Source: Bactericera cockerelli (lineage: Eukaryota > Arthropoda > Insecta > Hemiptera > Triozidae). Taken from it: a DNA stretch of 64,000 nt. The stretch's first letter is position 1; the number at the start of each line of letters is the position of its first letter. The notes under the pieces were generated by a model. The model was not told the DNA's origin, searched no databases, and saw only the letters and a list, made by a program, of their open reading frames with translations. The stretch covers positions 467,157-531,156 of the forward strand of contig JAMCCL010000015.1 in the NCBI GenBank assembly GCA_024516035.1, written 5' to 3'. Below, piece after piece: positions 207 to 62,776 of this stretch. A program made the translations under genes and the position numbers.

Positions 207-371
207 ATACCTTGGCGTCTCTAAAGTTCAAGATGTCGGAGAACATAGCCACCGAAACCATGAACATGAAACTGTGGAAGGGCTGCTTCAAGGAGAACCT
301 GAACAAGTTTGTGGAGCAGTTCACGGAGTCTATTACGGTGGACAGGAGACTGTACAAAGAGGACATTGCAG
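207..371 (+). CDS. argH: ASL exon 1 (coding from 233)
   Basis: A pyrimidine-rich tract ending TTTTTCAG at 199-206 looks like a splice acceptor, so an untranslated exon may lie further upstream, outside the window. The reading frame from ATG 233 gives 46 codons and ends ...LYKEDIA plus one G at 371. The donor is GGTAAG at 371-376. The last 31 nt of this exon plus the donor form the unit that is tandemly repeated downstream. Confidence 0.8.
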
Positions 372-3300
372 GTAAGCACTGGACAGGAGACTGTACAAAG
401 AGGACATTGCAGGTGAGCACTGGACAGGAGACTGTACAAAGAGGACATTGCAGGTAAGCACTGGACAGGAGACTGTACAAAGAGGACATTGCAGGTAAGC
501 ACTGGACAGGAGACTGCTTAAAGAGGACATTGCAGGTAAGCACTGGACAGGAGACTGTACAAAGAGGACATTGCAGGTAAGCACTGGACAGGAGACTGTA
601 CAAAGAGGACATTGCAGGTAAGCATTTGGATGAGGAAGCAAGTGGTTGGAGGACTACATATAAACAGGTTTTAGGTAAAAGGGAGAAGAAAATTGATTAT
701 GGAAAAAAAATGCATTGAGTAGTTTCCATACTATCAAATCACCTCACTACTTGGATCATTTGTATTTTAATTACTATTTTTTTTTTTTTTTAATAATTTT
801 AATGTTTTTAATGTTAAATTTTTGTACTTTATTACTTTGTATATTGGGTCCCCATGGGCACCTAAATTTTAATAATAATAAATAAAAAAAATTAACGAAC
901 TGATACCTTCAACATTTGAGTTTGACCAAATTGTTTAGGAATAATGAAATTATGTAGGAAAATATCAATTTAGAACTAATTTTGAGAAATGAATATATCC
1001 CCCAGGATCAATCGCTCACGTGACCATGCTGCACTCCTGCGGTCTGGTGAAGGAGGAGGAGAAGGAGATCATCATCAAGACCCTCAACGAAATAGAAGTG
1101 GACATAAGAGAAGACAAGATAGAACTGAAAACTGAACTGGAAGACATACACATGAACATTGAGTCTGAACTCATCAAGAGAATTGGTAAGTTAGTGAATT
1201 CTTCTTCATAATATTGAGGAATAAACCAAAGTGGGTATCTTTTTAATCCAGATTAAAATAGAAGAGCTGAGACGAGACGATAGAAATAAAAACTGAACTG
1301 GAAGACATACACATGAACATTGAGTCTGAACTCATCAAGAGAATTGGTAAGTCAGTGAATTCTTCTTCATAATATTGAGGAATAAACCAAAGTGGGTATC
1401 TTTTAAATCCAGATTAAAATAGAAGAGCTGAGACGAGACGATAGTTATAAAAACTTAACTGGAAGACATCCATATGAACATTGAGTCTGAACTCATCAAG
1501 AGAATTGGTAAATCAGTAAACTCTTCATATTAATATTGTAGAATAAAAGTGAGTATCTTCAAAATCCAGATTGAAATAGAAGTGGACATTAGAGATATTA
1601 TACATGAACTTTATACATGAATTAGATATATTATACATGAACATTGAGTCTGACCTAATCAGAATTGGTGGGTTAGTAAAAAAAAAAAAAATATTTTTAT
1701 TACAAAGTACACTCCTGGATGACAAAAAATGTTTTTAACTATTTATAAAATATAAAAAATGCTTTCCAAGTCTGAGGAACGAGGCACTGTGCCCATCACA
1801 GCAGAATATTGGAAAAGACATGAGGATTTTTTAATGAACTCACAAAAAAAGTCAGCAAGTTTCAGTCATCATAATAATATGGTTCAATAAGTATCAAATA
1901 AAAAAATGAGTTTTCCCCATAGTAACTTTCATCGGTAGACTTTCCAAATTTTTCCTGGTGTCCGCTTCAGAATTTCAAAAAAAAAAAATAAAAAAATAGA
2001 AATTGAGAGTTTTGCATATTTCTCATATTTTACAATTTCTATGATCATTGTTGAAAGAACGAGCTGAGATGAACAAGTGACACCTAATTCACTTCCCACC
2101 TCGGTTGATGAGTTTTCCGTCTCCTTCATGCAGTTTGAACTTGAGACAAATGAGACATTCTCGAGTTAGTCCCATGCGTGACGCAAAATTATTTCTGCCA
2201 CTTTTTAGCGCGTTTCCATTTTAGCAGGAATCCTATATACATAGTTTAATTATAAATGTAGAACACCCATACATATTACATATGGTGTTGTTTTCAAAGT
2301 AGGTTCCTTTTTCTCAATGAAACTTTCTTTTTATTATTATTTTTATAAAATTATATTATAATATCAGATGTACATTAACAAGACTTTTAAAAAGCTAAAA
2401 AATTGTAACGGGATTAAGAAATATTTCAATAGGAGATAATCTAGAGAGAAAATCCTGGTTTTTTCTATATTAGTAACCAACTCTGTGCGCCAGAGGGTCT
2501 TAACTCACCATTAATATCTGCTATGTTACTATACAATCAACACTCCTCTAAATTGGACCTTTTAAATAATGTAAATATCTTTAAGAAAGAATGTAAGCAA
2601 CAACTAGGTTTAGAAAATTAATCTTACCTAGGCTAAGTATTAAGTTCATGTAATTGCAGTGAAACACATTGCGTTTGAACATTAATTAAAAAAAAAAATT
2701 GAAAATGTCAAAAGAGATTTGGAGGGTCACCCGCTTTCGTAAATGGGCCATAAAATTGTGAATTTATTATTATTTTTTTTATTCAAAATATATTTTATTT
2801 TTAAATGAGAACAAACGCTTTGGACAGTTCCGAAACTCTAATTCTTTTAAAATAATACATGGATTAAGTCTAATCCAAGAAGAAGTAGAAGTTACTAATC
2901 CAGAGCTTTAATTACTAAGCATAATATACAAGTCATTGACTTGATTAACCCCGTCGTATATGACCATCCAGTTGAAAAACGACGTTGAAAATAATAATAA
3001 TAATAATCTGGTCATTCGCACCAGATAGGTTGTTGGTGTGTTTCTTAAAATAAAATGACACAGAGGCAAGAATCTTAACATTAATCTCAGAAGAATGAGA
3101 TTAGAAGACTCTCTGGATACGACTCGGGAGATTACTCACCATCTCAAAATATCGCGAATAAAAAGCAGCATTAATCATAAGAAGAAGTTTGTTGGTTTAA
3201 AAATAATTTATTATTTTTACTCATGTTTTGCCAATTATCGGAATATAAATTTACAGTGGTCGAATGACGTCCACTTTGAGATTTGTCAAACTGTTAGAAC

Positions 3301-4624
3301 TTGACTGACTAAAATATGTAAAACATAGTTAAAACACAACTAGAATACAACATAGTTAATACATAACACAAATACAACATAAAAATGATATTTTAGACTT
3401 AAAATCTAAAGAAAGTCGCATTCATTGGTAGCGATATAGACACAACACCCCATAACCTTTTAGCCCAACTAATATCACGTGATAATCGCCTAACTGTTTT
3501 CAGGTGACACCGGACGAAAACTCCACACAGGTCGCAGCCGCAACGACCAGATCGTCACAGACCTGCGGCAGTACACCCGCAAGCACACTGACGTCATCAT
3601 AGAGCTCCTCCTCAACATCATGAAGCACCTGACGGACCTGAGCGACAAACACGCCAAGACCATCATGCCCGGCTTCACCCACTTTCAGATCGCTCAACCC
3701 ATCTCGCTCGGCCACTACCTCCTCGCCTACGCCTGCATGTTCCAACGCGATATCAACCGACTCATCGACTGTCGGAAACGGGTGAACATCTGTCCCCTCG
3801 GAAGTGCAGCCTTGGCGGGCACCACTCACCACATCAACCGATACTTGACGGCCAAGCTTCTGGACTTTGAAAGGCCGTCGGAGAATTGTCTGGACTCCAT
3901 CTCGGACAGAGACTTTGTCATCGAGTTCATCTCCACCTGCTGCCTCATCGTCATGCATTTGTCTCGCATCAGCGAGGAGTTCATCATCTTCATGAACCCT
4001 CAGTTCAACTTCCTCATACTCCCAGAGTCGTTCCTCACAGGATCGTCCATCATGCCTCAGAAGAAGAACCCGGACGTACTGGAGTTGATTCGCGGAAAGA
4101 CAGGAAGGATTTACGCGAACCTAATCAACATCCTGACCACGATGAAGTGTCAGACGCTCGCGTACAACAAAGACTTGCAAGAGGACAAACTTCCTCTGTT
4201 CGACACGGTTGACAACATCATCATGTGTCTTGTGGCGTTTGGCAAACTCATTGAGAAGAGCATGTTCAACGAGCAGGAGATGTACGAGACAGCTATCAAA
4301 GGGTTCAGCATCAGCACGGATGTGGTCGACTATCTGGTCAAGAAAGGACTTCCGTTTCGCACGAGCCACGAGATTGTTGGTAGCATCATCAAGTACTGCA
4401 ACGAAAAACACAAGACCTTCTCAGACCTGAGTTTGGCCGAGTTGAAAACATTCCACAGTTATATTAAAGACGATATCATCGATATTTTGTGCATTGAGAA
4501 TTCCATCAAGTTCAAGAACCATATTGGTGGCACAGCTCCAGAACAGGTGAAGATATCTGTGCAGGGCTTCAGGTTTTACATCCAGAAGATTACAAATAAA
4601 TTGGAGTTCAAGTTTAGTGATTAG
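233..4624 (+). CDS. argH: Argininosuccinate lyase, bacterial-type, three coding exons
   Basis: This enzyme cleaves argininosuccinate to arginine and fumarate. Coding exons are 233-371, 1006-1185 and 3504-4624; joined they give 1440 nt, or 479 residues plus stop, slightly longer than the usual ~460. Both introns are GT-AG and phase 1. Residues 115-122 read TGRSRNDQ. The catalytic His lies in THFQIAQP (about 165-172), where bacterial enzymes usually have THLQxAQP. The family signature GSSIMPQKKNP starts at about 286 and holds the catalytic Ser. Segments such as NICPLGSAALAGT, LAYNKDLQEDK, DYLVKKGLPFR and GGTAPEQV resemble beta/gamma-proteobacterial ArgH more than animal ASL as I know these families. 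ATG 233 is chosen because it precedes the conserved LWKGCF block. The exons are far richer in G+C than their surroundings, so codon use is host-like. An AATAAA follows the stop. Inference: an ameliorated horizontal transfer with acquired introns. Confidence 0.9.
341..627 (+). repeat. 41-bp tandem repeat of the exon 1 end plus splice donor, 7 units
   Basis: Units start at 341, 382, 423, 464, 505, 546 and 587. Each carries the exon end (GACAGGAGACTGTACAAAG...) followed by CAG-GTAAG or CAG-GTGAG. The first unit is the real exon end. Because 41 is not a multiple of 3, later donors change the phase, and reading through meets a TAA at 455-457. Only the first donor keeps phase 1. The units are almost identical, so the expansion is recent or is being homogenised. 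Confidence 0.95.
628..1005 (+). other. ASL intron 1, remainder
   Basis: AT-rich intron sequence with a T run near 777-792. It ends in the acceptor TATCCCCCAG at 996-1005. No coding or RNA signal seen. Confidence 0.7.
1006..1185 (+). CDS. argH: ASL exon 2
   Basis: Codons run from the split glycine through SIAHVTMLHSCGLV to ELEDIHMNIESELIKRI and a final G. The donor is GGTAAG at 1185-1190. The block DIHMNIE matches the conserved ASL N-terminal domain. Acceptor and donor are canonical and the phase matches both neighbours. Confidence 0.88.
1253..1665 (+). repeat. Degenerate tandem copies of the exon 2 3' half with donor (pseudo-exons)
   Basis: Three further copies of the segment AATAGAAG...GAAGACATAC...ATGAACATTGAGTC...AGAATTGGTAAG follow exon 2. 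They start near 1257, 1418 and 1573, with periods of about 155-166 bp. The first two keep the donor (GGTAAG, GGTAAA). The last is scrambled and ends AGAATTGGTGGG. They carry internal substitutions and deletions and have no evident acceptor, so they are probably silent. Confidence 0.9.
1666..3503 (+). other. ASL intron 2, remainder
   Basis: About 1.8 kb of AT-rich DNA with no convincing coding region. A short piece at 2955-3006 (TATGACCATCCAGTTGAAA then an AAT repeat) resembles the 3' end of the 5S-headed SINE family found elsewhere in the window. The intron ends in CTGTTTTCAG at 3494-3503. Confidence 0.6.
3504..4624 (+). CDS. argH: ASL exon 3 (catalytic core and C terminus)
   Basis: This single long exon encodes residues 107-479, including TGRSRNDQ, the TH catalytic motif, the GSSIMPQKKNP signature and the C-terminal GGTAPEQV. 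It stays open for 1121 nt and stops at TAG 4622-4624. One long 3' exon with only two upstream introns fits a formerly intronless gene. Confidence 0.93.
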
Positions 4625-4696: not shown

Positions 4697-4702
4697 AATA
4701 AA
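4697..4702 (+). promoter_or_regulatory. ASL polyadenylation signal
   Basis: AATAAA lies 73 nt after the ASL stop and is followed by GT/T-rich sequence (TGTGGTCT, ATGTTTATT). It is the likely 3' end signal. Confidence 0.6.
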
Positions 4703-11220: not shown

Positions 11221-11305
11221 GTACACAAATAGCTCAGTGGTTAAGCACTCGCTTACGATGCGGAAGGTCCCGGGTTCGAACCCCCGCGCCGACAAAAATA
11301 ATCCT
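11221..11305 (+). mobile_element. tRNA-derived SINE-like insertion, family E
   Basis: Contains TAGCTCAGTGGTTAAGCAC (A box) and GGGTTCGAACCCCCGCGCCGAC (B box and T arm). The 3' acceptor strand is tRNA-like but the 5' strand does not pair with it, so this is not a functional tRNA gene. It interrupts the Helitron helicase. Related pieces lie at 17640-17740, 31490-31540 and 31868-31946. No clean target duplication found. Confidence 0.65.
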
Positions 11306-12052
11306 GTGTACATATACCGTTTCACCTGCTCCAGCCCCTGTGAATATAACTGCCTCGATAGTGTTTTTTTTTAAGGATGTAATTTGAAGCCGCGTGCCGT
11401 TACACAATTTCGGGGGTCTCAGATTTCTTAGTAATATTATTGGTGCTCCAACCTTAAGGCATAGCCGATGGGATGGCAAGCCAGGAGGATTTAGTGTATT
11501 AAGAAATTCGGTTGGGTAATGGATGGCTTCTTCCTCTTCCACAACAGTGTCTACGGATTCGTAAGTTGATAGTTCAGAAGGCATTCTTTTTAATAAGTCA
11601 TTATTAATTTCCAGAGCATTATCATTCTTTGGTGTTAGTATGGCCCTTATCTTTAGCCAAACAGGGACAACAACACTTGGGTCATCTAGATTGGGGTAGA
11701 TAGTGTCTAGGAAGGTGTTGTAATCGACTAATAACTGACAGTGTTCGGTAGGAAATACAATTTTTTTCATTTTGTTCAGGTAACTGTCCATCACCTATCC
11801 GAAGCAAAAGCTTCGAAAAAACGTCTGCATTTTGATCAGCGTGAAGGTGTACACGCATATATTCAACTTTAAAGAAAGAACAGTTATCTGTGGCCACAAA
11901 ATGGATGATTTTAAACATGCCTTCACTTCGTCAGCTCTTGTTCCACGTGGAACAACTGGTAAAGTTTGTCTAAAATCTCCAGACAGTAGCACAGTTTTAC
12001 CACCCATAAGATTTTTAACACCACAAATGTCTTGTAGAGTACGGTCCAGTGT

Positions 12053-12319
12053 TTTTTTTTTTTTTTTTTTTGTGGGGTTTAACGTCGCTTTCAACTGCCA
12101 TGGTCATATCACGACGGGGGTTTTACCCTCCATTCGCAGGAAACTCACAAACCTGCTACTCACATTGACCTCACCCAGCCTGAGTGGGGCCGGGAAAAGC
12201 CAGCGTCACGAGAATTAGAATTTGAATGGTCACCCATCCAAGTCTTAACCTCGCTGGATGTCGCTTAACTTCGGTGTTCTGAAGGGAACCGGTGTATTCA
12301 ACATGCCATCGACGCTGGC
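12053..12319 (-). mobile_element. 5S-rRNA-derived SINE, full length, nested in Helitron
   Basis: On the minus strand the first ~105 nt follow 5S rRNA: GTTGAATACACCGGTTC, GAACACCGAAGTTAAGCG (box A) and CTTGGATGGGTGACC (box C). Then comes a body with AGGCTGGGTGAGGTCAATG and GCGAATGGAGGGTAAAACC, ending in a long poly(A), seen as a T run at 12051-12072. A 13-bp duplication TACGGTCCAGTGT flanks it (12040-12052 and 12320-12332). It interrupts the helicase reading frame within LETLDRT. Confidence 0.92.
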
Positions 12320-12362
12320 TACGGTCCAGTGTCTCTAAGCCAGTTTTATGAGTCATTGTACA

Positions 12363-12571
12363 TCTTAATATATAAATGTCAAAGTCACTGACTGACTGAT
12401 CATCGCTCTACAGCCCAAACCGTAATACCTCGCGAGCTGAAAGTTGGTAGGTAGCTTTGCAATAAGACGGGATTTTTCGAAATTCCCACTACAACAGCTG
12501 CCATTGGCGAAAAAGGATTTTTTGCTTTCACGGCCATGCCTCGGCCCGCAAAGCGGGTGACAGCCCGCTAG
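12363..12571 (+). mobile_element. Non-autonomous Helitron, family 1, nested
   Basis: Starts TCTTAATATATAAATGTC directly after A 12362 and ends GCCCGCAAAGCGGGTGACAG then CCCGCTAG directly before T 12572. Removing it restores the helicase reading frame exactly (VYDE then CTMTHK) without extra bases. This is direct evidence for clean A/T insertion. It is the opposite-strand relative of 5474-5702. Confidence 0.92.
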
Positions 12572-13496
12572 TTCATCATATACGATGAACGTGAAATCCC
12601 TGAGGACTTTGGCCATATCACTTTGCTTTCCAATAATACAGCTTGGTGTATCTACTGAATTTAAATTGAGCGGCAATTTCAAAGCTGAATGAACAGTGCG
12701 GCCTCCTTCTATCAGTGTGGCGGCAATACCGGACGATGCAACAGCAATGGCAATATTTCCATATTTGCGTATTGTAGCTAACAAAAGGTTTATTAAGAAT
12801 GTTTTTCCAGATCCACCTGGAGCATCTAGGAAGAACAAATTATTACCTACAGAATCAAGAGATGAAGTGACGCTCTGAAGTACAGTTTCATACACGTATC
12901 TCTGTTCACTATTGAGTAATGGCACTTTTTCAGAGACGAAAGACCTCATTTGAAACGTGTTGTATGAAATTTCTGCCAAATAAGTTCTGTTGGTAATAAT
13001 GTTCACATTGCTTGCGCATCATCAAGTAACAAACCCATGGCTAGGCATGCAGCATGGAACGTAGGGTATTCAATGCCGCCTACCATTTTGAGGCTTCTGA
13101 ATGAAGTAGGTCCTCGCACTTTATGTAGAAGTAATCGTAGGTAGAAATATTCTGAGTCATTCGGATGTACGGTATAAATTTTACCAAGAACCTGGTCTTT
13201 TTTTACACCCGGATGTCCTGGAACAATTGATCTTTTTTTCCTTCTTTGGAACATGTTGTTTTTCCACACATAAAATGCTGGTACTTCATTATAAAAAAAG
13301 AGTCTTTGCAAATTCATCCTGGTTGCATAGTTGGAAAAACGCCATTAATGTTGTTTTAGGAGGGTTGTCAATTCTCTGTTGGACATTTTCGGTTGTAAAA
13401 ACTACCCTTTGTCCATTTTCAAAGTGGACGGCCAAATGTATGACAGGAGAGTATCTTTCATGAGTCGAAAAACATAGTATTCGCCATCCAGCTTGA

Positions 13497-25579: not shown

Positions 25580-26330
25580 TCTTTTTTTTATACACATATT
25601 TTCTTTTTCTTTCTTTAGGGAATTTGTTTTCTCTTTTCTTTCTTCATTTAGTTACAATAGATGTCAATTCTAACGCTCGCTTATAAATGTAACACCCACA
25701 TACTTGATCATAACTATGATTATATAATGGGTAATCAGGAAATTATTAGCCTTTTAAAACGAAGGGAAATAATATTTTTTTATATACACATGTTTTCTTT
25801 TTCTTTCTTTAGGGAATTTGCTTTCTGTTTTCTTTCTTCATTTAGTTAGAATAGATGTCAATTCTAACGCTCGCTTATAAATGTAACACCCAGATACTTG
25901 ATCATAACTATGATTATATAATGGGTAATCAGGAAATTATTAGCCTTTTAAAACGAAGGGAAATAAACGATTTAACCTTCCTTATAAAACTTTTAAAAAA
26001 TGAAATTTATTCGCCTGAATTACTTGGTAAGATCAATTTTAAAGTCAAAACAAGACCAACAAGATCAAATCATATTTTTAGTCTGAAACAACATAGAACG
26101 AATATAGGGGAATATTCCCCTATGAATAGAATTCAATTGTTAGGGAATAGAATAGGTGGAGATTTTGATTTGTTCCAAAGTAATGTTAAGGATATTGTTA
26201 AAACTATTTTTTAATTTTATTGATATTCTTAATTGTAATAACGATTTTTTTGTTTGTAATTTTATTAATGTAATAAAATGGAACGTAGTTCCCTAAATTT
26301 ATTTAAAAAAAAAAAAAAAAAAAAATTAAC
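25580..26330 (+). mobile_element. 5'-truncated LINE 3' end with internal 194-bp duplication
   Basis: The coding end of a non-LTR retrotransposon (25855-26214) is followed by a short 3' UTR and an A run at about 26306-26326. The segment 25590-25783 is repeated at 25784-25977 (period 194) with few differences, so the first 62-codon frame is a partial duplicate. No target duplication identified. Confidence 0.75.
25855..26214 (+). pseudogene. LINE reverse transcriptase, C-terminal end
   Basis: About 119 codons. It contains a pattern typical of the extreme C terminus of arthropod non-LTR reverse transcriptases: SLLKRREINDLTFLIKLL, then SPELLGKINFKV, TRPTRSN, HRTN and YSPMNRI. The palm domain is absent, so this is a 5'-truncated dead copy. 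Clade not assigned. Confidence 0.7.
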
Positions 26331-46280: not shown

Positions 46281-49200
46281 ATGAAAAAAAAATTACTGTC
46301 AAGTATCTTCTAAGGTAATTGCACTTACAAACTAATTAATTACCCCCTTATTTTTAAATAGGAAAAATACAAATTGTAACTATTAATTATTATTATTAGT
46401 TTCTACTATTACAATCTTAATAATAATTAATTAAAAATCTCACATATCAGCTGATAATCTACAAATTCAGCACACAAGTACTACTTAACAGTTACAAATG
46501 ACATCGTAAATTTCAAGAAAAAATATTAAAAATGTACTTAATTAATGGACATTAAAAAATACAAGAATAATGTTCATATCCAATAAAATAATTTCACCAA
46601 AAATTACAATAATCCTAGTAGTTTTACTATTTCTTTTGTTTTAGGACCAGGTAAATTCTTAGTAAAAATATCAGCAATATTATTAGAAGATGGTACATAT
46701 TTATACAAGATAAACCCATCTTTTACTTGTTCTTTGCAGATGTGGTACTGTAAATCTAAATGTTTTGTTCTTTCTGTCAACAAATCATGTTTACTCAAAG
46801 TAATAGCACCCATATTGTCAGCATAAATAGTGGTAGGTTTAGGTATAAACTTATCTTGGAGCATTTCTGTAAACTAATTTCTTAACCACTTAAGTTCTAA
46901 TGCGGCCTCTGCCATAGACATGTACTCAGCAGCTACAGTACTTCTAGCAATGGTACTTTGCTTCATACTTTTCCAAATGATAGCTGCACCAGCTAAAAAA
47001 ATAACAATACCACTTATTGACCTGCGCTCTTCAACACAACCAGAACCACCCCAGTCTGCATCACAGTAAACTTCTACTGGTTTTCCTGTCTTCTGATATA
47101 CAAGTTTTAACTCTTTAGTACCATTTATATATCTAAGTAAATGTTTTACAGATCTCCAGTTACTTTCTGTGGGACATTGGTTATTCTGACTAACTTTATG
47201 TACAGCATAGGATAAATCAGGTCTAGTATTATTTGACACATACAAAATACTACCTACAGCACTCCTATACATAGTAGAATCAACTTTCTCATCATTATTT
47301 GATTCACAAGTTTTTGACATAGGCAATGGTGATGTACAGGCTTTACTGTCCTGTAAACCAAATTCACACAGAATTTTATTAATGAAATTTGCCTGAGAAA
47401 GTGAAACTTTACCATCATGTTGTTCAATTTGAAAAGATAACAAATTCTTAGCACTTCCAAGATCTCTTATGTTAAGAATAGAGCTTAATTCAGATTTAAA
47501 ACTAATAACATTTTCCTTAATTCCTATTACTAGCAAGTCATCTACATATAAACCAACAATTAAATCAGGTTTTACAAAAACACAGGGATCACTAATACAT
47601 TGTTTGAATCCTAACTGAATCAATACTTTAGTAACACAAGAATTCCAGTCTTTGCTGGCATTGGGTAGGCCATAAATACTCTTCTTGAGTTTACATACAT
47701 AGCCATGTCTACCTTTTCCCTTCTCTACATATAACTCGGGTTGTTCCATGTACGTTTCAACACTGATGGGACTATTGAGATATGCACTAGTCACATCTAC
47801 ATGGTCAATGACCCAATCATTTTCTACAGCAACAGCAATAAGAATTCTAACAGTTCTTCTCTTCATTACAGGACTAAAAGTACTCTCCCAGTCAAAACCC
47901 ATTGATTTCTTAAAACCTTGAGCAACTAGTCTAGCTTTAAATCTCTCAACATTACCAAATTCATCATTTTTGATCTTAAAAACCCACTTAGACCCTACTA
48001 CTTGTTTGTCTTTTGGTCTCTCAACAATCTCCCAAACATCATTGTCTACCATGTTACCAATTTCAAGATCCATTGCTTCTTTCCATTTGTCCTTGTCCTT
48101 TGAATTGATAGCTTCCTGACACGTCTTTGGTTCATAAGATAACACAAAATTTTCAGCATTGTCCTTGTCCTTGAAATAATCACATTCTGCTCCTGCCACT
48201 GCACAACAACCCTCTGAACACGTTTTGACACTCCTCACTCTCTTTGATCTCCGCAACACTGGTTGACTGCTTGTCTCTTCAGCATGATCAACAATTTGAT
48301 CAACACATTGATCATTTTGCACTTCCACCAACACAGCAGGAACATCTTCATTGTGCATAGGATTTGCCAACTCCTCCATCAACTCATCTACAGGAACTTC
48401 ATTGTTGTCAAACAGTACAGATTGTGCTAACATGTCGGAAATAAAGTCTTCTTGAATGATACACAACTTTACGTCATCAGGTTTCTTTTGTTTGAAAGGA
48501 AATACACTTTCATTGAATACAACATCACGTCTTATGATAATGCATTGACGTTCTTCACTCCAGAGTCTGTATCCATCCTTGGTATCTTCTGCATAACCTA
48601 TTAGTATGCATTCTTCTACTTTGGAATCAAGTTTGCCACTACTTGTCTTCTTGGCAAATGCTTTACATCCATACACCTTCATTCTACTCATGTCTTCTTT
48701 TGTCAACTTTTTATTCGTCCACAACTCATACGGAATTCGATTATCAATAGCGGATGATGGACATCTGTTTCTAATGTATGCAGCTGCCATCACTGCTTCC
48801 GCCCAAAATTTCTTAGAAACTCCAGATTGTACTAGCATACAACGCACCATCTCCATCAGTGTTCTATTGCTCCGTTCAGCTACTCCATTTTGCTGAGGAC
48901 AATAAGGTACAGTTTTGCGATGTGTTATGCCATGAGATTCCAAATGTGACTTGAAATCAGATCTGGTGTACTCCGTTCCATTATCTGACTGTAACGCCTT
49001 GATTTTAGTGTCAAGTTGGTTCTCAACCAATTTTTGATAATTCACAAATTCACTAAATGCATCAGATTTTGACTCCAGACATTTCACAGTTATGAATCTT
49101 GAATAGTCATCAATAAATGTCATAATGTAATGAGAACCTCCAAGAGAAGCAGGGGTAAACTTTCCCATTAAGTCACTGTGTATGATTTGCAACAGTGCAC

Positions 49201-52200
49201 TAGACTTATGTTCACTTTGTTTAGGAAAACTTATTTTACTAAACTTCCCCTGTACACAAACTTCACAAACAAGTTTATCTTCATCCTTCATTTCAAGTAC
49301 TGGCAATTTCCTCATTGCATCTTGATGCAAGTGGCCTAGTCTTTCATGCCATATCATATTTGAAACAGTTTTGCAAGCTGCTCCATTTTGTGATTTACTT
49401 TCAAAAATATGTGAAATTTTTTGATAGTATTCACAATATATACTCGATCCTTCTTTAAAGCTTTGAAAATTAGTTCATCTGACTGCAATACCACTGCTTT
49501 GTTGTCCATGAACACTGCACTTAAACCTTTATCAGTCAACTTTGACACAGATATGAGACCACACTCCAGATCAGGTACATACAATGCATCACGCAATGTA
49601 ACGGTCAAACCACCATCTGACTCGGGTGTTTTTATCACTACTGATCCTTTACCAGCAATAAAGGCTGTATCTCCATTTCCCATTCTGATTGTTCCAGATA
49701 CATTTTTATCCAAACTAGAGAAATCATCAATGGATGGGCTCATGTGGTCAGTGCAACAAGAATCAAGAAACCACTCCTTTCTCTTCAATGTGCTTGTTTT
49801 ACCAACAGAACAAAAAGCTTTGGCTTTTTCAACTTGATCTTGTTCATCAATAGTACTCACTGCTGATTTGGCTAGTCTTGCATTCTTGAAATGTTGTTTA
49901 GTGGAACTAAACTGCACATTTGAGTTGTAATTTGGCCTCACAGGGCACTCTTTTGAAATATGACCTACCTCTCCACAGGTGTAACACTTGTAAACTTTGT
50001 TATCACTTTTCTTCTTGCATTGAGAATAGTTTGGCTTCTGATTGTCACTCCTATCAGATTTGAAATTCTTGACATTTCTGGTAGATAGTGCTATGGATTC
50101 TGAATCCATTCTTGATTGTCGTTTCTCCTCTACAAGCAGCTTTGACATGACACTGTCAAGCTTCAGATTTTCCACATACTCCATGGAACGAATAAAGATT
50201 TCAAAATTGTCTCTTGGCAATCCACGCAACAGATACAAACACAACGTATGGTCACCAAGGTTGATGCCACATCTTTTTATCTTACGATTCAAATCCAACA
50301 GCTTAGAAATGTAGTTTGACATGTTCATGTTACCTTTCTTCAATGTAGATAAATCCTCTAGAAATTCAATTTGTTGTAGCAAACCAAATTCTTGATTTAA
50401 CGTCTCCAATGTAAGCCATGCTTTTTCAGCTGTTTTGAATTCTCCAATGTAATCTATGTGTTTGTCACTCACACTCAACAAAATCAAAGACAACGCTCTG
50501 GCGTTCTTCTTACGTTCTCCAGCAGTAAGAGTTTCAAATAGCTCCTCTCCTCCATAACCAGGTTCAATTGCCTCCAGACAGTCCTTCTGCTCCAGTAAGG
50601 CTTTGGCCTTGATGTGCCATGCAAAATAGTTGTCATCAGTCAGCTTCAGACCTTTCTCCATTTGTTCTGAGGAAGCCATAACTCCTTAGCTTTCACACAG
50701 ACCACAGGTACTCCTTCTGCTAACAACTCCTTGATGAACAAAGCATGAACAGAACCAACTCCTGATATTCTGATACTCACTTGTTCCTCCTCTCAGAGTG
50801 TAGTAGCTCTGGGCCCATAACCTGTTATAAATTGACAACACATTTGCTTACTGTACAATAAAAACTACAAAAAAGGTTTTTATTAACATCACAATTCTTA
50901 TAATAAAAAAAACTCCACGAGAGAAAAACTACGTCTGGAAAAAAGCAGAAAAAAAAAGGACTCCTCTTAGAACAAAGAGAACCGCTCTTTTTACAAAAAC
51001 AAAAGAACAACGAGCTCAAAAGTATTACCACCGTAAGGTGCTGCCATCAGTGACTATTCTTATAACTATCAAGGAGGTTCCACCCCAGTGGAATTGCAGT
51101 GGTGGTTATTTAAATTTTGTTAGTATTACCAACATTTATAACCTTATTTACATCAATCTTTACTATCGGACATTAATGTTTACATGTGCAATTGTACATA
51201 GTACAGGAACATGTGTATACAAACATAGAAGTTCATCATTTAAGATTTTTACATAAATTGAGTTTTTTACAACTTTCTATTTGAAGTTTGAACGTAAAAT
51301 TCTATCGATACTTCTGAAGAACTTGTTAATGCGAGAACCACAAGTCGGTGTGAGCTGAAATCTTGCATGGTTACCAATGACAAGCTCACGGAGGTTCTGT
51401 GCACTCAAAAAGTCCATTTTTCAAAAGTTGAGCTTTTAAATGAGCTTTTTTAAATACTGGCATATCTCGAAAAGTACAAGTCCCATCGAGCTGAAATTTA
51501 TTATGGTTCCTGATGATGATGATTCGAGTTGCAATTTTGGTAAAAAATTAGTAGCGAAAGTTTGAGTAGTTGTGGCATTACCAAAGTGATTTACACGAAT
51601 ATGATAACTACTAACATATTTTGATTTACTAAGAATTATCGAAAATCTTGAAATTGGGTACAATAATTTTCTTTTATCATAGTCCGGGATAGCTTGGGAA
51701 GTTTGATTTTTACCCATTCAAACATTCATATTATACAGCCTTATACAAGTAGTTGTTTATCAGCCTCCGTGGCGTAATGGTTGTGGCTACTGCCCGTAGT
51801 CCAGAGTTCCCGAGTTCAACTCCCGGCTGGGGCAGACTTTTCGAAGAAAATTCTGTTCCATCCAAACACGTGAGGCTGGCATTTCCGGCCCTACCCAGGC
51901 TGGGTGAGGTTAATGTGGGTAGCTGGTACGATTCCCAGCGAATGGAGTGTAACCCCCGTCCTAATCCAGGACGTTAAATCCAATAGAATCGTTGGCGTTA
52001 GGAAGGGCATCCAGCCGTAAAAAATGTGCCAAAACCAATCAACTTCAACCATGAGGTTGAACAACGTCAACCCTGCTTGAGCGGATAAGACAGAGTAAAA
52101 GAAGAAGAAGAAGATACAAGTAGTTGTTTGTGTTGGTGTAATTATGCGCTGTCTAGAATACTAGACTAGCGCCGTAACCACTCAACCTTTTCACAAACCT

Positions 52201-58200: not shown

Positions 58201-61200
58201 AGTGGGTGTTTCAACGTGTGGATGGGTTTGTCGCTTCCTTCAGCTCAGCATCCTACACATTGTCTAGTATTATTTGATGACTAAGGATTTATTGACTATT
58301 CTTTGTTTCACTATCTAGACTCTCCTTTAATTTATATATTTTTTTCAATTAGGGCGCTTTAACTTGTTAATTCCAAGTTGTTCGCGCCGGTTCCGATAGA
58401 GTTTCATATTAGATGGAGTAAATTAAGGGCGCTTTGACTAACTTTTGCATTATTCATCCTAGATGGGGGTTGTGACATATCAAATCAAATAATTGTGAGG
58501 TGCTGATTTGATATATTTGTTATCTGTTACCGTTGAGTCACCAGTGGCGGAATTCGACTTATTTTCGGGGGATAAGGAAAGTCGTGTGTTATCACACCAG
58601 ATAAAAAATAAGATAATCAAAATTATCAATATCAATGTCTGCATAACTTCTATGAACGTTTTCAAATTGTTGCCTTGTTTGTTCGCAGAGTGGAGAAAGA
58701 GAAAGCCAAATTCCAACAAGAAGTATACGACCTCCTGGCTCAACTCGAGAATGCGAACAAAGAAAAGGCAAGTTTCTTTTGTTGAAATAGAGAGCTCTAA
58801 ATCCTATGAGACCTTTTTAAAGTGAAATAAAAGAAAATGCCAATGCAGTTTGACGTACGATACCATCAAGTATACCATGAATAGGTATAATTATTTCAGT
58901 TAGGGTAGCGCAATCATCAGACAGGAACTATGATGGACCCCCGGTGAAATCGTCTAAAATCCATACTACAAAAATATTTTTCTAGGGCAGATTTTGAGGT
59001 AAATTTGATGTACTCCTGTTATCTATTGTGTATATGCAATGTGCAGTGTATTTCTTAGTTGGTGAATTTACTACAAGCATTGCCTGGAGGTAAATAAATA
59101 GCAATAAAGGGGGAAGAATGTTATAATTAGATTTTTAAACTAATTTTAAAAATCTAATGAAATTTTTTTAGACATCATCAATAATCTTTATAACTTAATA
59201 AGAGATTACCCAGAACGAAATCTAGTCTGGGCTCTTTTGAAAGACAATCCTAGATGCTCTGATGGTGGCTATTTGTGTGTGAGCCTGGATGCAACATAAA
59301 ATTTTAAGGAGAATAATTTACTAAAATTAATAAATAAGTCCAAAAACTTTGGCAATCCAAAGGGACAACCTCTCGAGCATCAGAGACACGCTTCCGTGTT
59401 CGAGGAAATGTTTTTATTTATTTTATTATAAAAAGAGTATTTCGTCTTATTTAATACTTAGCCATGAAACTGGAGCTACTGTAGACGTCTTTGGTGTGTG
59501 TTGCAGCTTGCCCCTACCAGTAGTATGCCTCCCCTTTAATGGGCGAGAAGTGACACAATACTTCCCAGTTAGGTGCTGGGTCAACACGAGCGTACCGGAA
59601 CGTATGTTACCAAATTTAGAATACAATTTTTTGGTCGTTCTATCAAATCTCTATATATAAAACAGAAAAAAGGACTACCTACCTATGTTTGTTTGTTTGT
59701 CCGGAGTTGTTTAGCCAAAACGGTAAGAGATAGCGAAAAATGTCTCAGAATTGACCCCCCCAAAACCATTATCGCTTTGTCCAGAAAAATTATAAAAAGT
59801 TCAAAAAGGCATTGCTGTCCAGCAGTACGGCCATGCCTTAGTAAATTTGAAATTTAGTCCCGTTGCAAAGCACGGGCAAACGGCTAGTACATAATAAAAT
59901 AGGAAATGTGTTTGATCTTTGAAATTTTAATTGAAAATACTGGTGTTTATAACAATTGTATATTTCCAATTCTCCAGAGCACACACGTGAAGCACATCGA
60001 GAAGCTGGAGGTGACCATTCTGGAGCTGAATGTCCGCATTGAAGAGATCAACCGCACTGTCATTGACATCACCTCCCACAAGACCAGGCTCTCCCAGGTG
60101 CGTGAGACACCCTGTATAAATATTCCAACTAGTCACTGTGGCTGACTGGTGTAGCGTACTAGGCTTTCACGCACCGCAAGACGCACGGTGACCTGAGTTC
60201 AAATCCCGGCCGGGTAGATTTTTTTTCATTTTGTACTTTACATCACCCGAAAAGTATACAGAAAATTCTACTCAATTGCAGGGTACTGAGTGATTTGTAC
60301 AAAGATATTAGGAATAGATTGTACCTTTAACAGAAATTGTCTTTCAGTTTTTGATGAAGTGTACTTCAGGTACACATTAAAACAAACACACGGAAAAATC
60401 GGCAACACCCATCTCCAACTGTGAAATTCCTAACCTGTGTTCTTTTCTTCACAGGAAAATCTGGAGTTGACCAAGGAAGTGCAGGACCTGAAGGTGAACC
60501 TAGAGAACTCCTCCTACCTGAAGAGTCAGCTGGCAGGACAACTGGAGGATGCCCGCAGGCGACTGGAGGATGACGAGAGAGTGAGTAAATTTAGGTTTAA
60601 TAGTGAGGTTTTGCAGAGTACGTACGTAATTTTCGGAAGACTAAATCAATCAAGGGAATGTGAGCATGTGCAGAAACGAGTTTTCGTCAGATATGGTCGA
60701 AAAGGTCAATTCAATTCAGTTAGCGTAACGTATCTCTGAACTGCGCAAAATGTCTAATAATAGACACGTAGACCCGAATCAATGAAAGGTGCTGTGGTGG
60801 ACACTGTTACTATCTCTATATATAAATGAGAAATATGGACGGGCTTTGTATCTTTGTATCTTTGTGTGCGGGAATTGTTTAGGCGAAACGGTAAGAGATA
60901 GCGAAAAATTGATGAGAGATGACCCCAAGTAAAATGGCCGTACGGTATCAGGAAAACTATCAAAAGTCCGAAATTCCAAACCGTCCTTGAGTTATGACCT
61001 TCCTTAAGTATTTCCTTGAGGAAGGGTCCGATTTTAAGACAGTCTTTGCCCTGGAACTTGAAATCTATCGCGAGGACCTATATTTTTTATTATTTAATAA
61101 CACATTAGACAAAATTAGCTTTCATATAATTCATTTTAAGCCACATTCTGACGTACCGTTCTGGAGATATAAGCCAGAATGTTCGAAATTTCGACCTTTT

Positions 61201-61615
61201 TTTCAGACTTTTCACGTTTTTTAGCAGATTCCAGCGCGGAACTTAAAATTTGTCGCGAGGACCTATATTTTTTATTATTTAATAACACATTAGACAAAAC
61301 TAGCTTTCATTTAATTCATATTAGGCTACATTCTGACGTACCGTTCTCGAGATAGAAGCCAGAATGTTCGAAATTTCGACCATTTTTCAGACTTTTCACG
61401 TTTTTTTTACAGATTCCAGCACGGAACTTAAAAGTTATCGCGAGGACCTATATTTTTATTGTAAAAACTGTCTGAGAACATCACATGATTTTATTTGAGC
61501 CCTTTGTAGCCATATTCTGACAAACCGTTCTCGAAATATGGGCCAGTTTACTATATTATCAATATCCGCTATGATAGATTTGGCTCGGGATTTTGAAATT
61601 TACAGCGATGATGGT

Positions 61616-61658
<43 letters not shown>

Positions 61659-62776
61659 TGATGTGTGTGTGTGGATGTGTGGATGGGTGTGTGTGTGTGT
61701 GTATATATGTGTGTGGTGTGTGTGTGGGTGGGTGTGTGTGGATGGGTGTGTGTATGTGTGTGTGATTGTGTTGTGTGTGTGTGTGTGTTTGGGTGGGTGT
61801 GTGTGTATGGGTGTGTGTGTGGATGTGGATGTGTGTGTGTGGATGTGTGTGTGTATGGATGGGTGTGTGTGTTGATGTGTGTGTGTGTGTTTGGGTGGGT
61901 GTGTGTGTATGGGTGTGTGTGTGGATGTGTGTGTGTGTGTGTATGGATGGGTGTGTGTGTTGATGTGTGTGTGTGTGTGAGGTGTGTATGTTGTGTGTGA
62001 GTGTGGTTTGTGATGTATGGGTGGTGTGTGTGTGACGGCTTGGCGAAGCGGGTGCAGCCCGCTAGTAGTATCATATTTCAGTTAAGTGATGGGCAGTTAC
62101 TATGGTGATAACAGCACTATAGTAACCTGTCTCTGCTATAGCGTCGTTCTTTATTTCGGGCTTTAATGTTTGGTCTCTGAAACATCCCAAGACAACTCTC
62201 TCAGCCAAGTGGTTGTCGTTAACTATCCGGAATTCAGAGAACCAAGGGATGTATGCACATGTTAGTCGTATTTTTCTTTCTAACTAAAATTTTTTTCCTG
62301 GTTAGGTTTTTTCCAAATATTTCCATTTTATTCCAAGGTCATTCGTGAAAGAAAAATGCGTTTGGTTACTTATAAAGATAAACAATGGACTTAACCTATA
62401 AAAGAACTGGAAGCAAGAATTTTCTACTTCCACTTTGGTTAACTTTGGAAGTGGAAATTTTTCCTCTTCCAAAAGAAAAATGACTTGCTTCCAGTTTGGT
62501 TCATTTTATTCCCGTTTGGTTAACTTTGGTTAGAAAGAAAAATACGGCAGTTGATAACCAATTCTCCTCCCACCTCCAGCGCCGCTCCCTGCTCGAGTCC
62601 CAACTCCACCAGGTGGAGGTGGAGCTGGAGAGTGTCAGAGTTCAGCTGGAGGAGGAGGCGGAGGCCCGCCTGGATCTGGAGAGGCAACTGGTGAAGGCCA
62701 ACGGAGACGCCCTGTCCTGGAAGAGCAAGTACGAGACCGAGGTGAACGCCCACATCGAGGAAGTCGAGGAGCTCAG
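42855..62776 (+). CDS. Prm: Paramyosin, N-terminal third (8 exons; continues beyond window)
   Basis: Paramyosin forms the core of invertebrate thick filaments as a long dimeric coiled coil. Exons: 42855-42968, 52629-52685, 54132-54218, 55183-55349, 58689-58767, 59978-60097, 60455-60580, 62580-62776, together 947 nt (315 codons plus 2 nt) of a protein usually near 880 residues. The head is a Ser/Tyr-rich non-helical stretch ([10 protein letters not shown]) followed by [19 protein letters not shown], then continuous heptads: [97 protein letters not shown]. All junctions join in frame and match insect paramyosins as I know them. Introns total about 19 kb and hold mobile elements. The exons are G+C-rich. 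Confidence 0.95.
43073..43216 (+). mobile_element. tRNA-derived SINE, family C, in paramyosin intron 1
   Basis: TTACCGTGGCCGAGGCTTGC, GTCCTAGGATCGAGTCCC, CTACTCTGCACTTTGGCTG, CTCGCGAGAAAAATGAG and TAGTTACTTGTATGAGTAAC. Confidence 0.75.
43381..43512 (-). mobile_element. Family I element, internally deleted
   Basis: CACTGCCAATTATTACTTCC at the left and TTACGGAAGTAA at the right are the two ends of the ~700-bp family I element, reversed, with most of the middle lost. Confidence 0.65.
43530..43887. mobile_element. MITE, family K
   Basis: Left GGGCCAAATTATAAAACAAG and right TTATGTTTCATAATGTGGCCC are imperfect inverted ends. The internal TGCGCTGTGATTGGTTGAAAC matches 18396-18546. Confidence 0.7.
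44037..44515. repeat. Interspersed repeat family J, copy 2
   Basis: GGTGTGAAAACACACGACTTTC at the left; AATCAGCACCTCC, GGATTTGATATGTCACAACC and CCGGTAAATTGGGGCC shared with 7144-7510; the right end TTCTATAGGATAAGGAAAG resembles 45450-45475. Non-coding. Confidence 0.7.
44516..45636. other. Paramyosin intron 1, mostly unrecognised
   Basis: 45095-45480 resembles a further J-type unit (CGGCTCCGATTTTTTTTC, CCGTTCTTGAGATA, TTTCTATAGGACAAGGAAAG). No coding region supported. Confidence 0.45.
45637..45949 (-). repeat. Copia 3' LTR
   Basis: 313 bp, bounded TG...CA when read on the minus strand (TGTTGGTAATAC...TATAACA). Differs from the other LTR by one base in an A run (9 A here against 8). Confidence 0.95.
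45950..46195 (-). repeat. Polypurine tract and its tandem copies
   Basis: The minus strand AGGGGAAG directly abuts the 3' LTR. Two further copies of ACTTCCCCTGATAATTAATA (+ strand) with ~87-bp spacing lie at about 46020 and 46107, inside a tandem duplication. A ~39-base T run follows at 46241-46279. Confidence 0.85.
46604..46873 (-). pseudogene. Copia RNase H C-terminal end after in-frame stop
   Basis: Same frame as pol. Contains [14 protein letters not shown] and [16 protein letters not shown], then [13 protein letters not shown], the usual Copia RNase H end, and stops at 46604. It is separated from pol only by one TAG codon. Confidence 0.9.
46874..49357 (-). CDS. Copia Pol: integrase, reverse transcriptase, RNase H
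   Basis: 827 codons. The gag-pre-integrase [12 protein letters not shown] is at the start, with Zn-binding CEVCVQGK. Integrase core: D62 (HSDLMG), D125 (QSDNGTEY) and E161, that is D-x35-[29 protein letters not shown] and YVDD near 600. RNase H: CDADWGG near 765 and [13 protein letters not shown]. The frame stops early at 46874-46876 (TAG) after ELKWLRN. The rest of RNase H continues in the same frame downstream. All catalytic residues seen are intact. Confidence 0.95.
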   Translation of the reverse strand: MIWHERLGHLHQDAMRKLPVLEMKDEDKLVCEVCVQGKFSKISFPKQSEHKSSALLQIIHSDLMGKFTPASLGGSHYIMTFIDDYSRFITVKCLESKSDAFSEFVNYQKLVENQLDTKIKALQSDNGTEYTRSDFKSHLESHGITHRKTVPYCPQQNGVAERSNRTLMEMVRCMLVQSGVSKKFWAEAVMAAAYIRNRCPSSAIDNRIPYELWTNKKLTKEDMSRMKVYGCKAFAKKTSSGKLDSKVEECILIGYAEDTKDGYRLWSEERQCIIIRRDVVFNESVFPFKQKKPDDVKLCIIQEDFISDMLAQSVLFDNNEVPVDELMEELANPMHNEDVPAVLVEVQNDQCVDQIVDHAEETSSQPVLRRSKRVRSVKTCSEGCCAVAGAECDYFKDKDNAENFVLSYEPKTCQEAINSKDKDKWKEAMDLEIGNMVDNDVWEIVERPKDKQVVGSKWVFKIKNDEFGNVERFKARLVAQGFKKSMGFDWESTFSPVMKRRTVRILIAVAVENDWVIDHVDVTSAYLNSPISVETYMEQPELYVEKGKGRHGYVCKLKKSIYGLPNASKDWNSCVTKVLIQLGFKQCISDPCVFVKPDLIVGLYVDDLLVIGIKENVISFKSELSSILNIRDLGSAKNLLSFQIEQHDGKVSLSQANFINKILCEFGLQDSKACTSPLPMSKTCESNNDEKVDSTMYRSAVGSILYVSNNTRPDLSYAVHKVSQNNQCPTESNWRSVKHLLRYINGTKELKLVYQKTGKPVEVYCDADWGGSGCVEERRSISGIVIFLAGAAIIWKSMKQSTIARSTVAAEYMSMAEAALELKWLRN
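49354..50679 (-). CDS. Copia Gag with zinc knuckle and protease
   Basis: 441 codons from ATG 50679. The N-terminal UBN2-like gag domain ([16 protein letters not shown]) is followed by a CCHC knuckle [14 protein letters not shown] at about 232-245 and a protease motif [10 protein letters not shown] at about 305-314, where families usually have DSG, so the Gly is a Cys. The frame ends at 49354, overlapping the start of the pol frame by four bases. Because Copia elements normally have one gag-pol frame, a one-base slip in the T6 run near 49417-49422 probably separates them. It encodes capsid and protease functions of virus-like particles. Confidence 0.93.
   Translation of the reverse strand: MASSEQMEKGLKLTDDNYFAWHIKAKALLEQKDCLEAIEPGYGGEELFETLTAGERKKNARALSLILLSVSDKHIDYIGEFKTAEKAWLTLETLNQEFGLLQQIEFLEDLSTLKKGNMNMSNYISKLLDLNRKIKRCGINLGDHTLCLYLLRGLPRDNFEIFIRSMEYVENLKLDSVMSKLLVEEKRQSRMDSESIALSTRNVKNFKSDRSDNQKPNYSQCKKKSDNKVYKCYTCGEVGHISKECPVRPNYNSNVQFSSTKQHFKNARLAKSAVSTIDEQDQVEKAKAFCSVGKTSTLKRKEWFLDSCCTDHMSPSIDDFSSLDKNVSGTIRMGNGDTAFIAGKGSVVIKTPESDGGLTVTLRDALYVPDLECGLISVSKLTDKGLSAVFMDNKAVVLQSDELIFKALKKDRVYIVNTIKKFHIFLKVNHKMEQLAKLFQI
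50809..50822 (-). promoter_or_regulatory. Copia primer-binding site (half-tRNA type)
   Basis: Immediately inside the 5' LTR the minus strand reads GGTTATGGGCCCAG. This complements the anticodon stem-loop of initiator tRNA-Met (CTGGGCCCATAACC), not its 3' CCA end. It matches the known Drosophila copia arrangement, in which a 5' tRNA fragment primes synthesis. Confidence 0.85.
50823..51134 (-). repeat. Copia 5' LTR
   Basis: 312 bp, same ends. It would carry the element's promoter on the minus strand, directed toward paramyosin exon 1. Confidence 0.95.
51135..51758. other. Paramyosin intron 1, unrecognised apart from a SINE tail
   Basis: 51567-51611 (GAGTAGTTGTGGCATTACCA...GAATATGATAAC) is a family B SINE tail on the + strand. 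Rest AT-rich. Confidence 0.5.
51759..52113 (+). mobile_element. tRNA-derived SINE, family A, full length with 16-bp duplication
   Basis: Head CAGCCTCCGTGGCGTAATGG (A box) and GAGTTCAACTCCCGG (B box). Body CACGTGAGGCTGGCATTTCC, CCAGGCTGGGTGAGGTTAAT, ATTCCCAGCGAATGGAG. Tail TTAGGAAGGGCATCCAGCC, ACCATGAGGTTGAA and (AAG)n. The exact duplication ATACAAGTAGTTGTTT lies at 51743-51758 and 52114-52129. Confidence 0.95.
52200..52410 (-). mobile_element. Family A-like SINE 3' region, diverged
   Basis: A T run followed by GGTCAACCTCTTCCTAATGG, TTGAGGGGTTGAAG, GGATGCCTTCCTAACTCC: reverse of the family A tail (GGAAGGCATCC). Confidence 0.5.
52629..52685 (+). CDS. Prm: Paramyosin exon 2
   Basis: 19 codons, phase 0 at both ends: acceptor TTTTCCAG, donor AGG-GTAAG. 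Encodes [19 protein letters not shown]. Confidence 0.93.
52686..54131 (+). other. Paramyosin intron 2
   Basis: Contains a LINE-tail-like piece (53296-53345, CATGTCCTAACTGAAGAGCG) and a family F repeat (53870-54085). The open frame near 52731-52928 has no recognisable relative and is not supported as a gene. Confidence 0.6.
53870..54085 (+). mobile_element. SINE-like repeat, family F
   Basis: GTTAAGGCGCTAGTCAGG, GTTGATTCAAATCCCC (B-box-like), CCCAATGCATGAATTTTTCC, ATAATAAGACTATGAGGGTT, AGGTGGTAGAAAATGC and ACCTTCCACTAAAGAG. Confidence 0.78.
54132..54218 (+). CDS. Prm: Paramyosin exon 3
   Basis: 29 codons, phase 0; acceptor TGATTCCAG, donor CAG-GTAAG. Encodes [20 protein letters not shown] and on to GGAESQ. 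Confidence 0.93.
54777..54882 (-). mobile_element. Family A SINE, 3' part, in paramyosin intron 3
   Basis: GTGACCAGTTGATTCTATTT, GGTTTTAACGTCCTGAT, CGTTGGGAATCGTACCAGC and TACCCACATTTACC. Head missing; a small AGATAGATAATCAGGACG insertion is present. Confidence 0.7.
55183..55349 (+). CDS. Prm: Paramyosin exon 4
   Basis: 55 codons plus 2 nt. Begins [20 protein letters not shown], ends ...ALAKSKS plus AG. Acceptor TTGTTCTAG, donor CAG-GTAAG. Confidence 0.93.
55350..58688 (+). other. Paramyosin intron 4
   Basis: 3.3 kb, AT-rich. 58440-58600 holds a family J piece (GGGGGTTGTGACATATCAAA, GAGGTGCTGATTTGATAT, CCAGTGGCGGAATTCG, GGGGGATAAGGAAAGTCG). Nothing else recognised. Confidence 0.6.
58689..58767 (+). 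CDS. Prm: Paramyosin exon 5, non-canonical GC donor
   Basis: 79 nt: completes an Arg codon and encodes [20 protein letters not shown] then NANKEK. The frame fits exon 6 only if the donor is AAG-GCAAGT at 58765-58773, a GC-AG intron with an otherwise perfect donor consensus. No GT nearby preserves the family sequence. Confidence 0.9.
59460..59610. repeat. Interspersed repeat family H, copy 3
   Basis: GTTGCAGCTTGCCCCTACC, TGCCTCCCCTTTAATGGGCG, AGAAGTGACACAATACTTCC, GGTGCTGGGTCAACACG. Matches 17372-17640. In paramyosin intron 5. Confidence 0.65.
59648..59887 (+). mobile_element. Non-autonomous Helitron, family 2, in paramyosin intron 5
   Basis: A|TCTCTATATATAAAACAG at the start; ends CCCGTTGCAAAGCACGGG hairpin, then CAAACGGCTAG|T. 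240 bp. The AGCCAAAACGGTAAGAGATA and GCGAAAAATG blocks are shared with the longer element at 60813-62065. Confidence 0.85.
59978..60097 (+). CDS. Prm: Paramyosin exon 6
   Basis: 40 codons, phase 0; acceptor TTCTCCAG, donor CAG-GTGCGT. Encodes [20 protein letters not shown] then [20 protein letters not shown]. Confidence 0.93.
60127..60250 (+). mobile_element. tRNA-derived SINE, family C, in paramyosin intron 6
   Basis: GTCACTGTGGCTGACTGGTG, ACGGTGACCTGAGTTCAAAT (B box) and CCCGGCCGGGTAGATTTTTT. It fills most of a 357-bp intron. Confidence 0.75.
60455..60580 (+). CDS. Prm: Paramyosin exon 7
   Basis: 42 codons, phase 0; acceptor CTTCACAG, donor AGA-GTGAGT. Encodes [20 protein letters not shown] and ends [10 protein letters not shown]. 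Confidence 0.93.
61035..61550 (+). repeat. Three ~185-bp tandem units inside the Helitron
   Basis: TCGCGAGGACCTATATTTTT recurs near 61068, 61253 and 61438; CATTCTGACGTACCGTTCT recurs near 61143 and 61329, with a diverged form near 61512. Confidence 0.92.
61616..62032 (+). repeat. GT-rich compound microsatellite/minisatellite
   Basis: (GT)n interspersed with GGATG and GGGTG motifs, including a higher-order unit of roughly 110 bp (TGGGTGGGTGTGTGTGTATG...) repeated twice. The Cys/Val- and His/Thr-rich frames here are artefacts. Confidence 0.95.
62267..62548. repeat. Possible small inverted-repeat element near exon 8
   Basis: CGTATTTTTCTTTCTAACTA (62268-62287) is mirrored by TGGTTAGAAAGAAAAATACG (about 62528-62547). 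TTTGGTTAACTTTGG also occurs twice between them. Too little to assign a family. Confidence 0.45.
62580..62776 (+). CDS. Prm: Paramyosin exon 8
   Basis: 65 codons plus 2 nt; acceptor CCACCTCCAG, donor CAG-GTGAGT. Encodes [20 protein letters not shown] and ends [11 protein letters not shown] plus AG. The next exon lies outside the window or was not found. Confidence 0.93.

Follow-up and report, generated by a model that had tools for sequence, protein, structure and literature searches.

We found that a 64,000-nucleotide stretch of the genome of the psyllid Bactericera cockerelli (assembly GCA_024516035.1, contig JAMCCL010000015.1, positions 467,157 to 531,156 of the forward strand; hereafter the window) carries near its start a gene predicted to encode a bacterial-type argininosuccinate lyase (ASL, the ArgH of bacteria), an enzyme that splits argininosuccinate into arginine and fumarate. 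We give a probability of roughly 0.88 to the reading that this psyllid-type ASL, likely acquired by transfer from a gammaproteobacterium, would complete arginine synthesis by cleaving argininosuccinate that its symbiont, Carsonella, supplies.

The gene starts with an ATG at 233 and its stop codon ends at 4624. Its three exons join into 1440 bases (479 residues plus stop), and are separated by two predicted phase-1 introns with GT..AG ends, 634 and 2318 bases long. The features of the locus are given below, where C5 denotes a 46.3-Mb contig of the same genome with a further copy of the gene, P0004 a database row with 89% identity to the window ASL, and a slash a splice junction.

233..371, plus strand: ASL exon 1, ending CAG/GTAAGC in phase 1; the same exon is present on C5
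372..1005, plus strand: predicted intron 1, 634 bases (1031 bases in the C5 allele)
1006..1185, plus strand: ASL exon 2, from the gene model
1186..3503, plus strand: predicted intron 2, 2318 bases; row P0004 joins the shared sequence at the same junction
3504..4624, plus strand: ASL exon 3, with the Lyase_1 and ASL_C2 domains, the active-site blocks and the stop codon
4697..4702, plus strand: AATAAA, a possible poly(A) signal

Exon 3 alone, scored as a translation with one extra upstream residue, reaches 457 bits against the NCBIfam model TIGR00838 for argH and so passes the cut-off of 279.5 (the relative P0002 reaches 574 bits), and it matches both Lyase_1 and ASL_C2 of Pfam. Alignment to duck delta-2 crystallin and to Larsenimonas shows the active-site blocks LHTGRSRNDQ, PGxTHxQ, SxMPQKKNPD and YNKDxQEDK, which we take to have their catalytic roles in ASL. 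Collectively, the sequence indicates that the window encodes a full-length ASL with two predicted introns. A sequence-only reading of this DNA, made before the present analysis, had given the same coordinates and the same length, and both were re-derived exactly; the motif blocks that it quoted (LAYNKDLQEDK, DYLVKKGLPFR, GGTAPEQV and one more) are all found in the translation, its spliceosomal introns correspond to the two predicted ones and its poly(A) signal to the AATAAA at 4697. Its statement that the gene has host-like G+C also holds when host exons are the comparison: the coding sequence has a G+C content (GC) of 0.489, and of 0.72 at third codon positions (GC3), in a window whose 2-kb bins span 0.30-0.42, and two fumarase pieces of the same genome have GC 0.52-0.59 and GC3 0.60-0.73.

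The nearest named relatives of the protein are other psyllid proteins. Among the best 120 of 8000 scored rows of a search against 5.8 billion proteins, the closest named ones are Cyamophila willieti (92% identity) and the Pachypsylla venusta ASL (87%), a next tier at 60-64% consists of Diaphorina citri, Cacopsylla melanoneura and P0005, and further down most rows fall at 51-56%, where every named one is bacterial; above them, every named row is from a psyllid. A maximum-likelihood tree of 55 rows, for which the program flagged long branches in E. coli, T. thermophilus and Arabidopsis, joined eight psyllid ASLs, including that of a second gene of this genome, into one clade (100/100) that groups with gammaproteobacteria (98/91), apart from duck and human ASL. 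The result was the same for 51 rows with four vertebrate sequences (100/100 for the clade, 98/90 for its grouping with gammaproteobacteria), and the psyllid clade stayed at 100/100 in a 41-row tree without distant outgroups. In the two larger trees the psyllid clade contains two ASL subclades, supported at 100/98 and 100/97, with the window gene in the former.

Furthermore, we made a model-free comparison in 54 diagnostic columns, those in which at least 90% of 33 gammaproteobacterial-clade rows (7 of them assigned by tree position) agree on a letter and the five vertebrate rows agree on a different one. In the window ASL, 36 of these columns show the bacterial letter, 3 the animal one and 15 neither; for the second gene of the genome, on contig C7, the corresponding counts are 29, 4 and 21. 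Control rows gave 39, 8 and 7 (Geobacter, L041), 28, 8 and 18 (Heliobacterium, L074), 30, 8 and 16 (Nitrospira, L027) and 19, 13 and 22 (E. coli). The window protein is 50-55% identical to the 33 gammaproteobacterial-clade rows and 36-39% identical to the five vertebrate rows. As E. coli ArgH likewise shares only 39% with it, low identity alone is no mark of an animal protein. Bootstrap support, identity and diagnostic columns thus favour a gammaproteobacterial over an animal origin.

The explanation that we propose starts with a bacterial argH that likely passed from a gammaproteobacterium into an early psyllid genome. Carsonella ArgG would supply argininosuccinate, and the insect ASL, presumably expressed in bacteriocytes, is predicted to finish the pathway by turning argininosuccinate into arginine and fumarate. 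Two ASL paralogs without a common intron position, described below, would then likely be accounted for by a gene that had yet to gain introns at the time of its duplication, or of a second transfer. The literature bearing on this role is cited here by PubMed Central (PMC) number and for the content of the available excerpts. All ASL copies of B. cockerelli and D. citri are reported as up-regulated in bacteriomes (PMC10558732). Print disagrees on the ability of the symbiont to finish arginine alone: one Carsonella genome carries argG and argH (PMC11842425) and a review states that a Carsonella argH remains functional (PMC5664097), whereas argH is elsewhere described as stripped of key catalytic residues (PMC12203342, citing Tamames 2007) or as missing from one Carsonella lineage (PMC13378792).

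Several points weigh against the reading of a transferred gene that completes Carsonella arginine synthesis. The psyllid stem is very long, at 1.5-1.7 changes per column, and because of this the deep placement of the clade is weak; its attachment among the bacteria is unresolved in the 41-row tree without distant outgroups, and the program warned of unusual letter composition in several psyllid rows. Approximately unbiased (AU) tests, in three runs on two alignments that included no arthropod native ASL, failed to reject a grouping of psyllids with animals, as none gave a p value below 0.05 (p = 0.0899, 0.282 and, with E. coli added, 0.0746). With respect to the symbiont, the host ASL need not be the sole enzyme, because a Carsonella genome with both argG and argH and a functional argH are in print in the excerpts cited above. 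Argininosuccinate synthase (PF00764) had 0 candidates in the B. cockerelli genome and matched in 14 of 14 control genomes, which speaks for the reading; the search was made exon by exon, however, so that the 0 matches are no proof that ArgG is absent. Finally, a profile search with the eight psyllid ASLs found no Carsonella ArgH among its best 120 of 8000 rows, the names there including Candidatus (Ca.) Johnevansia, Ca. Ruthia and Ca. Vesicomyosocius.

The unrejected AU grouping, the long stem and the absence of an arthropod native ASL from the trees would all suit a native animal ASL of the insect that evolved fast and was falsely drawn toward the bacteria. We regard this as highly improbable: the free trees place the psyllid ASLs with gammaproteobacteria (98/91 and 98/90), the letters of the diagnostic columns are bacterial rather than animal by 36 to 3, identity is higher to the gammaproteobacterial-clade rows than to vertebrates, and the lack of any intron position common to the paralogs fits an intronless ancestor. 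A tree was among the checks proposed by the sequence-only reading, and no tree placed the gene among animal ASLs. Relatives, trees and diagnostic columns alike favour its central claim, that a sap-feeding hemipteran carries a bacterial-type argH, and its background statement, that such genes occur in sap-feeding Hemiptera, was already in print for several psyllids.

As for the donor, we consider a gammaproteobacterium likely on the basis of the trees. Ca. Johnevansia, presumably a relative of Carsonella, groups with Halomonadaceae in the 51-row tree (100/99) and is unplaced in the 41-row tree, and the psyllid clade groups with Halomonadaceae in neither. Forcing the psyllids together with Halomonadaceae gave an AU p value of 0.038; the same constraint with Johnevansia included was unrejected (p = 0.279). 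Neither Carsonella nor Portiera appeared as a title in a scan of genome contigs among the 80 loci kept (at least 591 relatives), and their ArgH was also sought in 275 genomes of the Larsenimonas family, none of them below 1.7 Mb. In the literature, Sloan et al. 2014 named Carsonella as the donor of two P. venusta copies, according to PMC5664097, and psyllid argH is of Halomonadaceae type according to PMC4607527.

The second gene of the genome is informative on the history of the introns. PF00206 has eight matches in the genome, three of which, on C7 (23.43 Mb), make up a second ASL with four predicted exons and 492 residues, 59% identical to the window ASL and 73-87% identical per exon to the D. 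citri row P0006. The remaining matches are the window copy, the C5 copy, two fumarase pieces on contig C3 and a purB-like match at C7:3005289; the fumarase and the purB-like match were ruled out as a native ASL by family identity. The window-type introns interrupt the glycines of DIAG/SIAH and KRIG/DTGR, and those of the C7 gene lie at LHTG/RSRN, ALAG/TTHP and LLTG/SSIM; all five positions are in phase 1 and 0 of the 5 are common to both paralogs. In the psyllid row P0004, unrelated sequence gives way to shared sequence exactly at the second junction of the window type, and in the Cacopsylla row P0122 the third C7-type exon is missing and nothing else there; three or more of the five junctions are therefore visible in other psyllid rows too. 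To our knowledge bacterial argH has no spliceosomal introns, so each of the five is likely a separate gain that followed either the duplication of a gene without introns or two transfers. As a separate observation, the QEDK block of the window ASL reads QECK or QEIK in the C7 paralog (L130) and in P0005-P0007, where a change in activity is possible.

The absence of a common intron position would also follow if the two psyllid ASL clades came from two separate transfers out of the same symbiont lineage, and a tree without Carsonella would show two transfers from Carsonella as one clade. We judge this rather unlikely compared with one transfer and a duplication, as the psyllid clade is supported at 100/100 on a long common stem and a duplication that preceded intron gain accounts for the introns equally well.

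The window begins 467 kb into its contig, C99 (531,156 bases), and runs to the contig end, in an assembly of 565 Mb in 1032 contigs. The same gene, with the same three exons, is present on the minus strand of C5 (exon 3 at about 43,797,381-43,798,501). The two proteins are identical at 479 of 479 residues, and their coding sequences differ by 13 bases, all synonymous and 12 of them at third positions. Under neutrality, 13 changes spread over 299 synonymous and 1138 replacement sites would include 0 replacements with a probability of about 1e-9, so strong purifying selection acts on the protein. C99 matched C5 in each comparison made: positions 2501-3083 of C99 at 44.256 Mb (94%, for the first 583 bases of a 1000-base query, the remainder lying nearby at 83%), the 10 kb upstream of the window and the gene region, in the same order, window position 25800 at 43.783 Mb (98%) and window position 58300 at 43.749 Mb (92%). 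Because C99 is collinear with one C5 stretch at every tested point, it is best read, from these alignments, as a second haplotype of the C5 locus and not as a second locus. The compared stretches differ by about 1-8%, with kilobase insertions and deletions in addition, and intron 2 measures 2318 bases on C99 versus 5110 on C5.

Two intact copies with an identical protein and a synonymous divergence of 0.044, which is high for alleles, could point to a recent segmental duplication that left two near-identical genes in the window-type clade. Such a duplication is distinctly unlikely in our view, since C99 follows one C5 stretch in order, as an unpurged second haplotype would; a true gene duplication was accordingly set aside in favour of haplotypes. 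The bacterial type of the protein might in turn suggest symbiont DNA or contamination of the assembly, to which we assign next to no chance. That an allele encoding the identical protein sits within a contig of 46.3 Mb disfavours a stray bacterial contig; two phase-1 GT..AG introns, the correspondence of C99 and C5 at all tested points across about 0.5 Mb, the Copia and PIF1-like elements within the window and the coding GC of 0.49 argue in the same direction.

Both donor sites of the gene lie in tandem arrays, found by Tandem Repeats Finder (TRF):

339..624, plus strand: 41-base tandem array, 7 copies, each with 33 bases of the exon-1 tail and a splice donor
1118..1582, plus strand: 161-base tandem array, about 2.9 copies, with the exon-2 tail and its donor

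The exon-1 unit consists of the last 33 exon bases and 8 intron bases. Against the 7 donors of the window, CAGGT[AG]AG occurs as a donor 16 times on the C5 haplotype, and near-perfect 41-base units account for 11 of these. ASL results only from the first exon-1 donor, as every other donor leads to a premature stop (6 of 6 in the window, 15 of 15 on C5), and both extra donors tested in the exon-2 array do the same. The three introns of the C7 paralog hold no such repeats; these introns were all read in one genome, that of the window. Past the first junction the exon continues with GATCAATC and not with GTAAGC. Intron gain through tandem duplication of an AG/GT site was for this reason set aside, and the array therefore appears to copy a pre-existing donor and to have arisen after the intron. 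Choosing the donor nearest the cap may be a simple route to correct splicing. A more far-reaching hypothesis would make the exon-1 array a length-dependent control, in which distal donors divert transcripts to premature stops and thereby tune the arginine-finishing enzyme of the bacteriocyte, the array postdating introns that the insect added to an intronless bacterial gene; we consider this quite unlikely. Titles and abstract openings of the literature found describe neither intron positions nor donor arrays of psyllid ASL, and Sloan et al. 2014 may describe introns; the word intron is absent from PMC10558732 and occurs in PMC12203342 under gene prediction only.

Elsewhere in the window, a Copia-type long terminal repeat (LTR) retrotransposon at 46874-50685, minus strand, has two overlapping open frames with copia gag, zinc knuckle, Pol beta-barrel, GAG-pre-integrase, integrase and RVT_2 domains. 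Pieces of a PIF1 helicase with a Pif1 2B domain lie at 11234-13344, minus strand, as in an element that is presumably of Helitron type. By their domains, these mobile elements are of host type. A long low-complexity stretch rich in TG/CA (61559-62081, minus strand) is open in several frames.

The psyllid diet is poor in amino acids and arginine synthesis is shared with a symbiont of tiny genome, so the retention of a bacterial gene by the insect nucleus illustrates what holds such partnerships together, and ASL is a gene that the insect likely cannot do without. The bacterial-type psyllid ASL is itself already known, with copies of bacterial origin described, in the excerpts available, from six psyllids that include P. 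venusta, D. citri and B. cockerelli, and its bacteriome expression and its link to Carsonella are published as well. What appears new is the probable second-haplotype allele pair, the paralogs without common introns and the exon-1 donor array of 7 versus 16 donors. Paralogs without common introns make the order of intron gain after gene transfer accessible, and alleles whose donor arrays differ more than 2-fold in length with the protein unchanged make donor choice testable.

Among known systems, the closest is the P. venusta ASL (UniRef A0A0A1HAC9), 87% identical over its full length and in the same 100/98 clade; it and the other transferred ASL genes of psyllids share the enzyme family and the inferred Carsonella role. 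A P. venusta row, P0003, differs by a 20-residue internal tandem repeat found in 0 of 7 other aligned psyllid rows, which may be real or an assembly artefact. The second psyllid clade (D. citri LOC103505009, C. melanoneura, P0005 and the C7 gene) is sister to the window type in the joint 100/100 clade, and its C7 member differs in identity, in intron positions and in having QECK/QEIK for QEDK. The ArgH of Halomonadaceae and Ca. Johnevansia belongs to the same family at 50-55% identity; these are bacterial genes, and the psyllid clade is not nested in Halomonadaceae in the trees. The whitefly Bemisia tabaci, in the excerpts of PMC4607527, offers a parallel in a bacterial argH with an intron in a sap-feeding insect; that gene came by an independent transfer from Enterobacteriales and is accompanied by argG, whereas the exon-by-exon search left ArgG unmatched in B. 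cockerelli.

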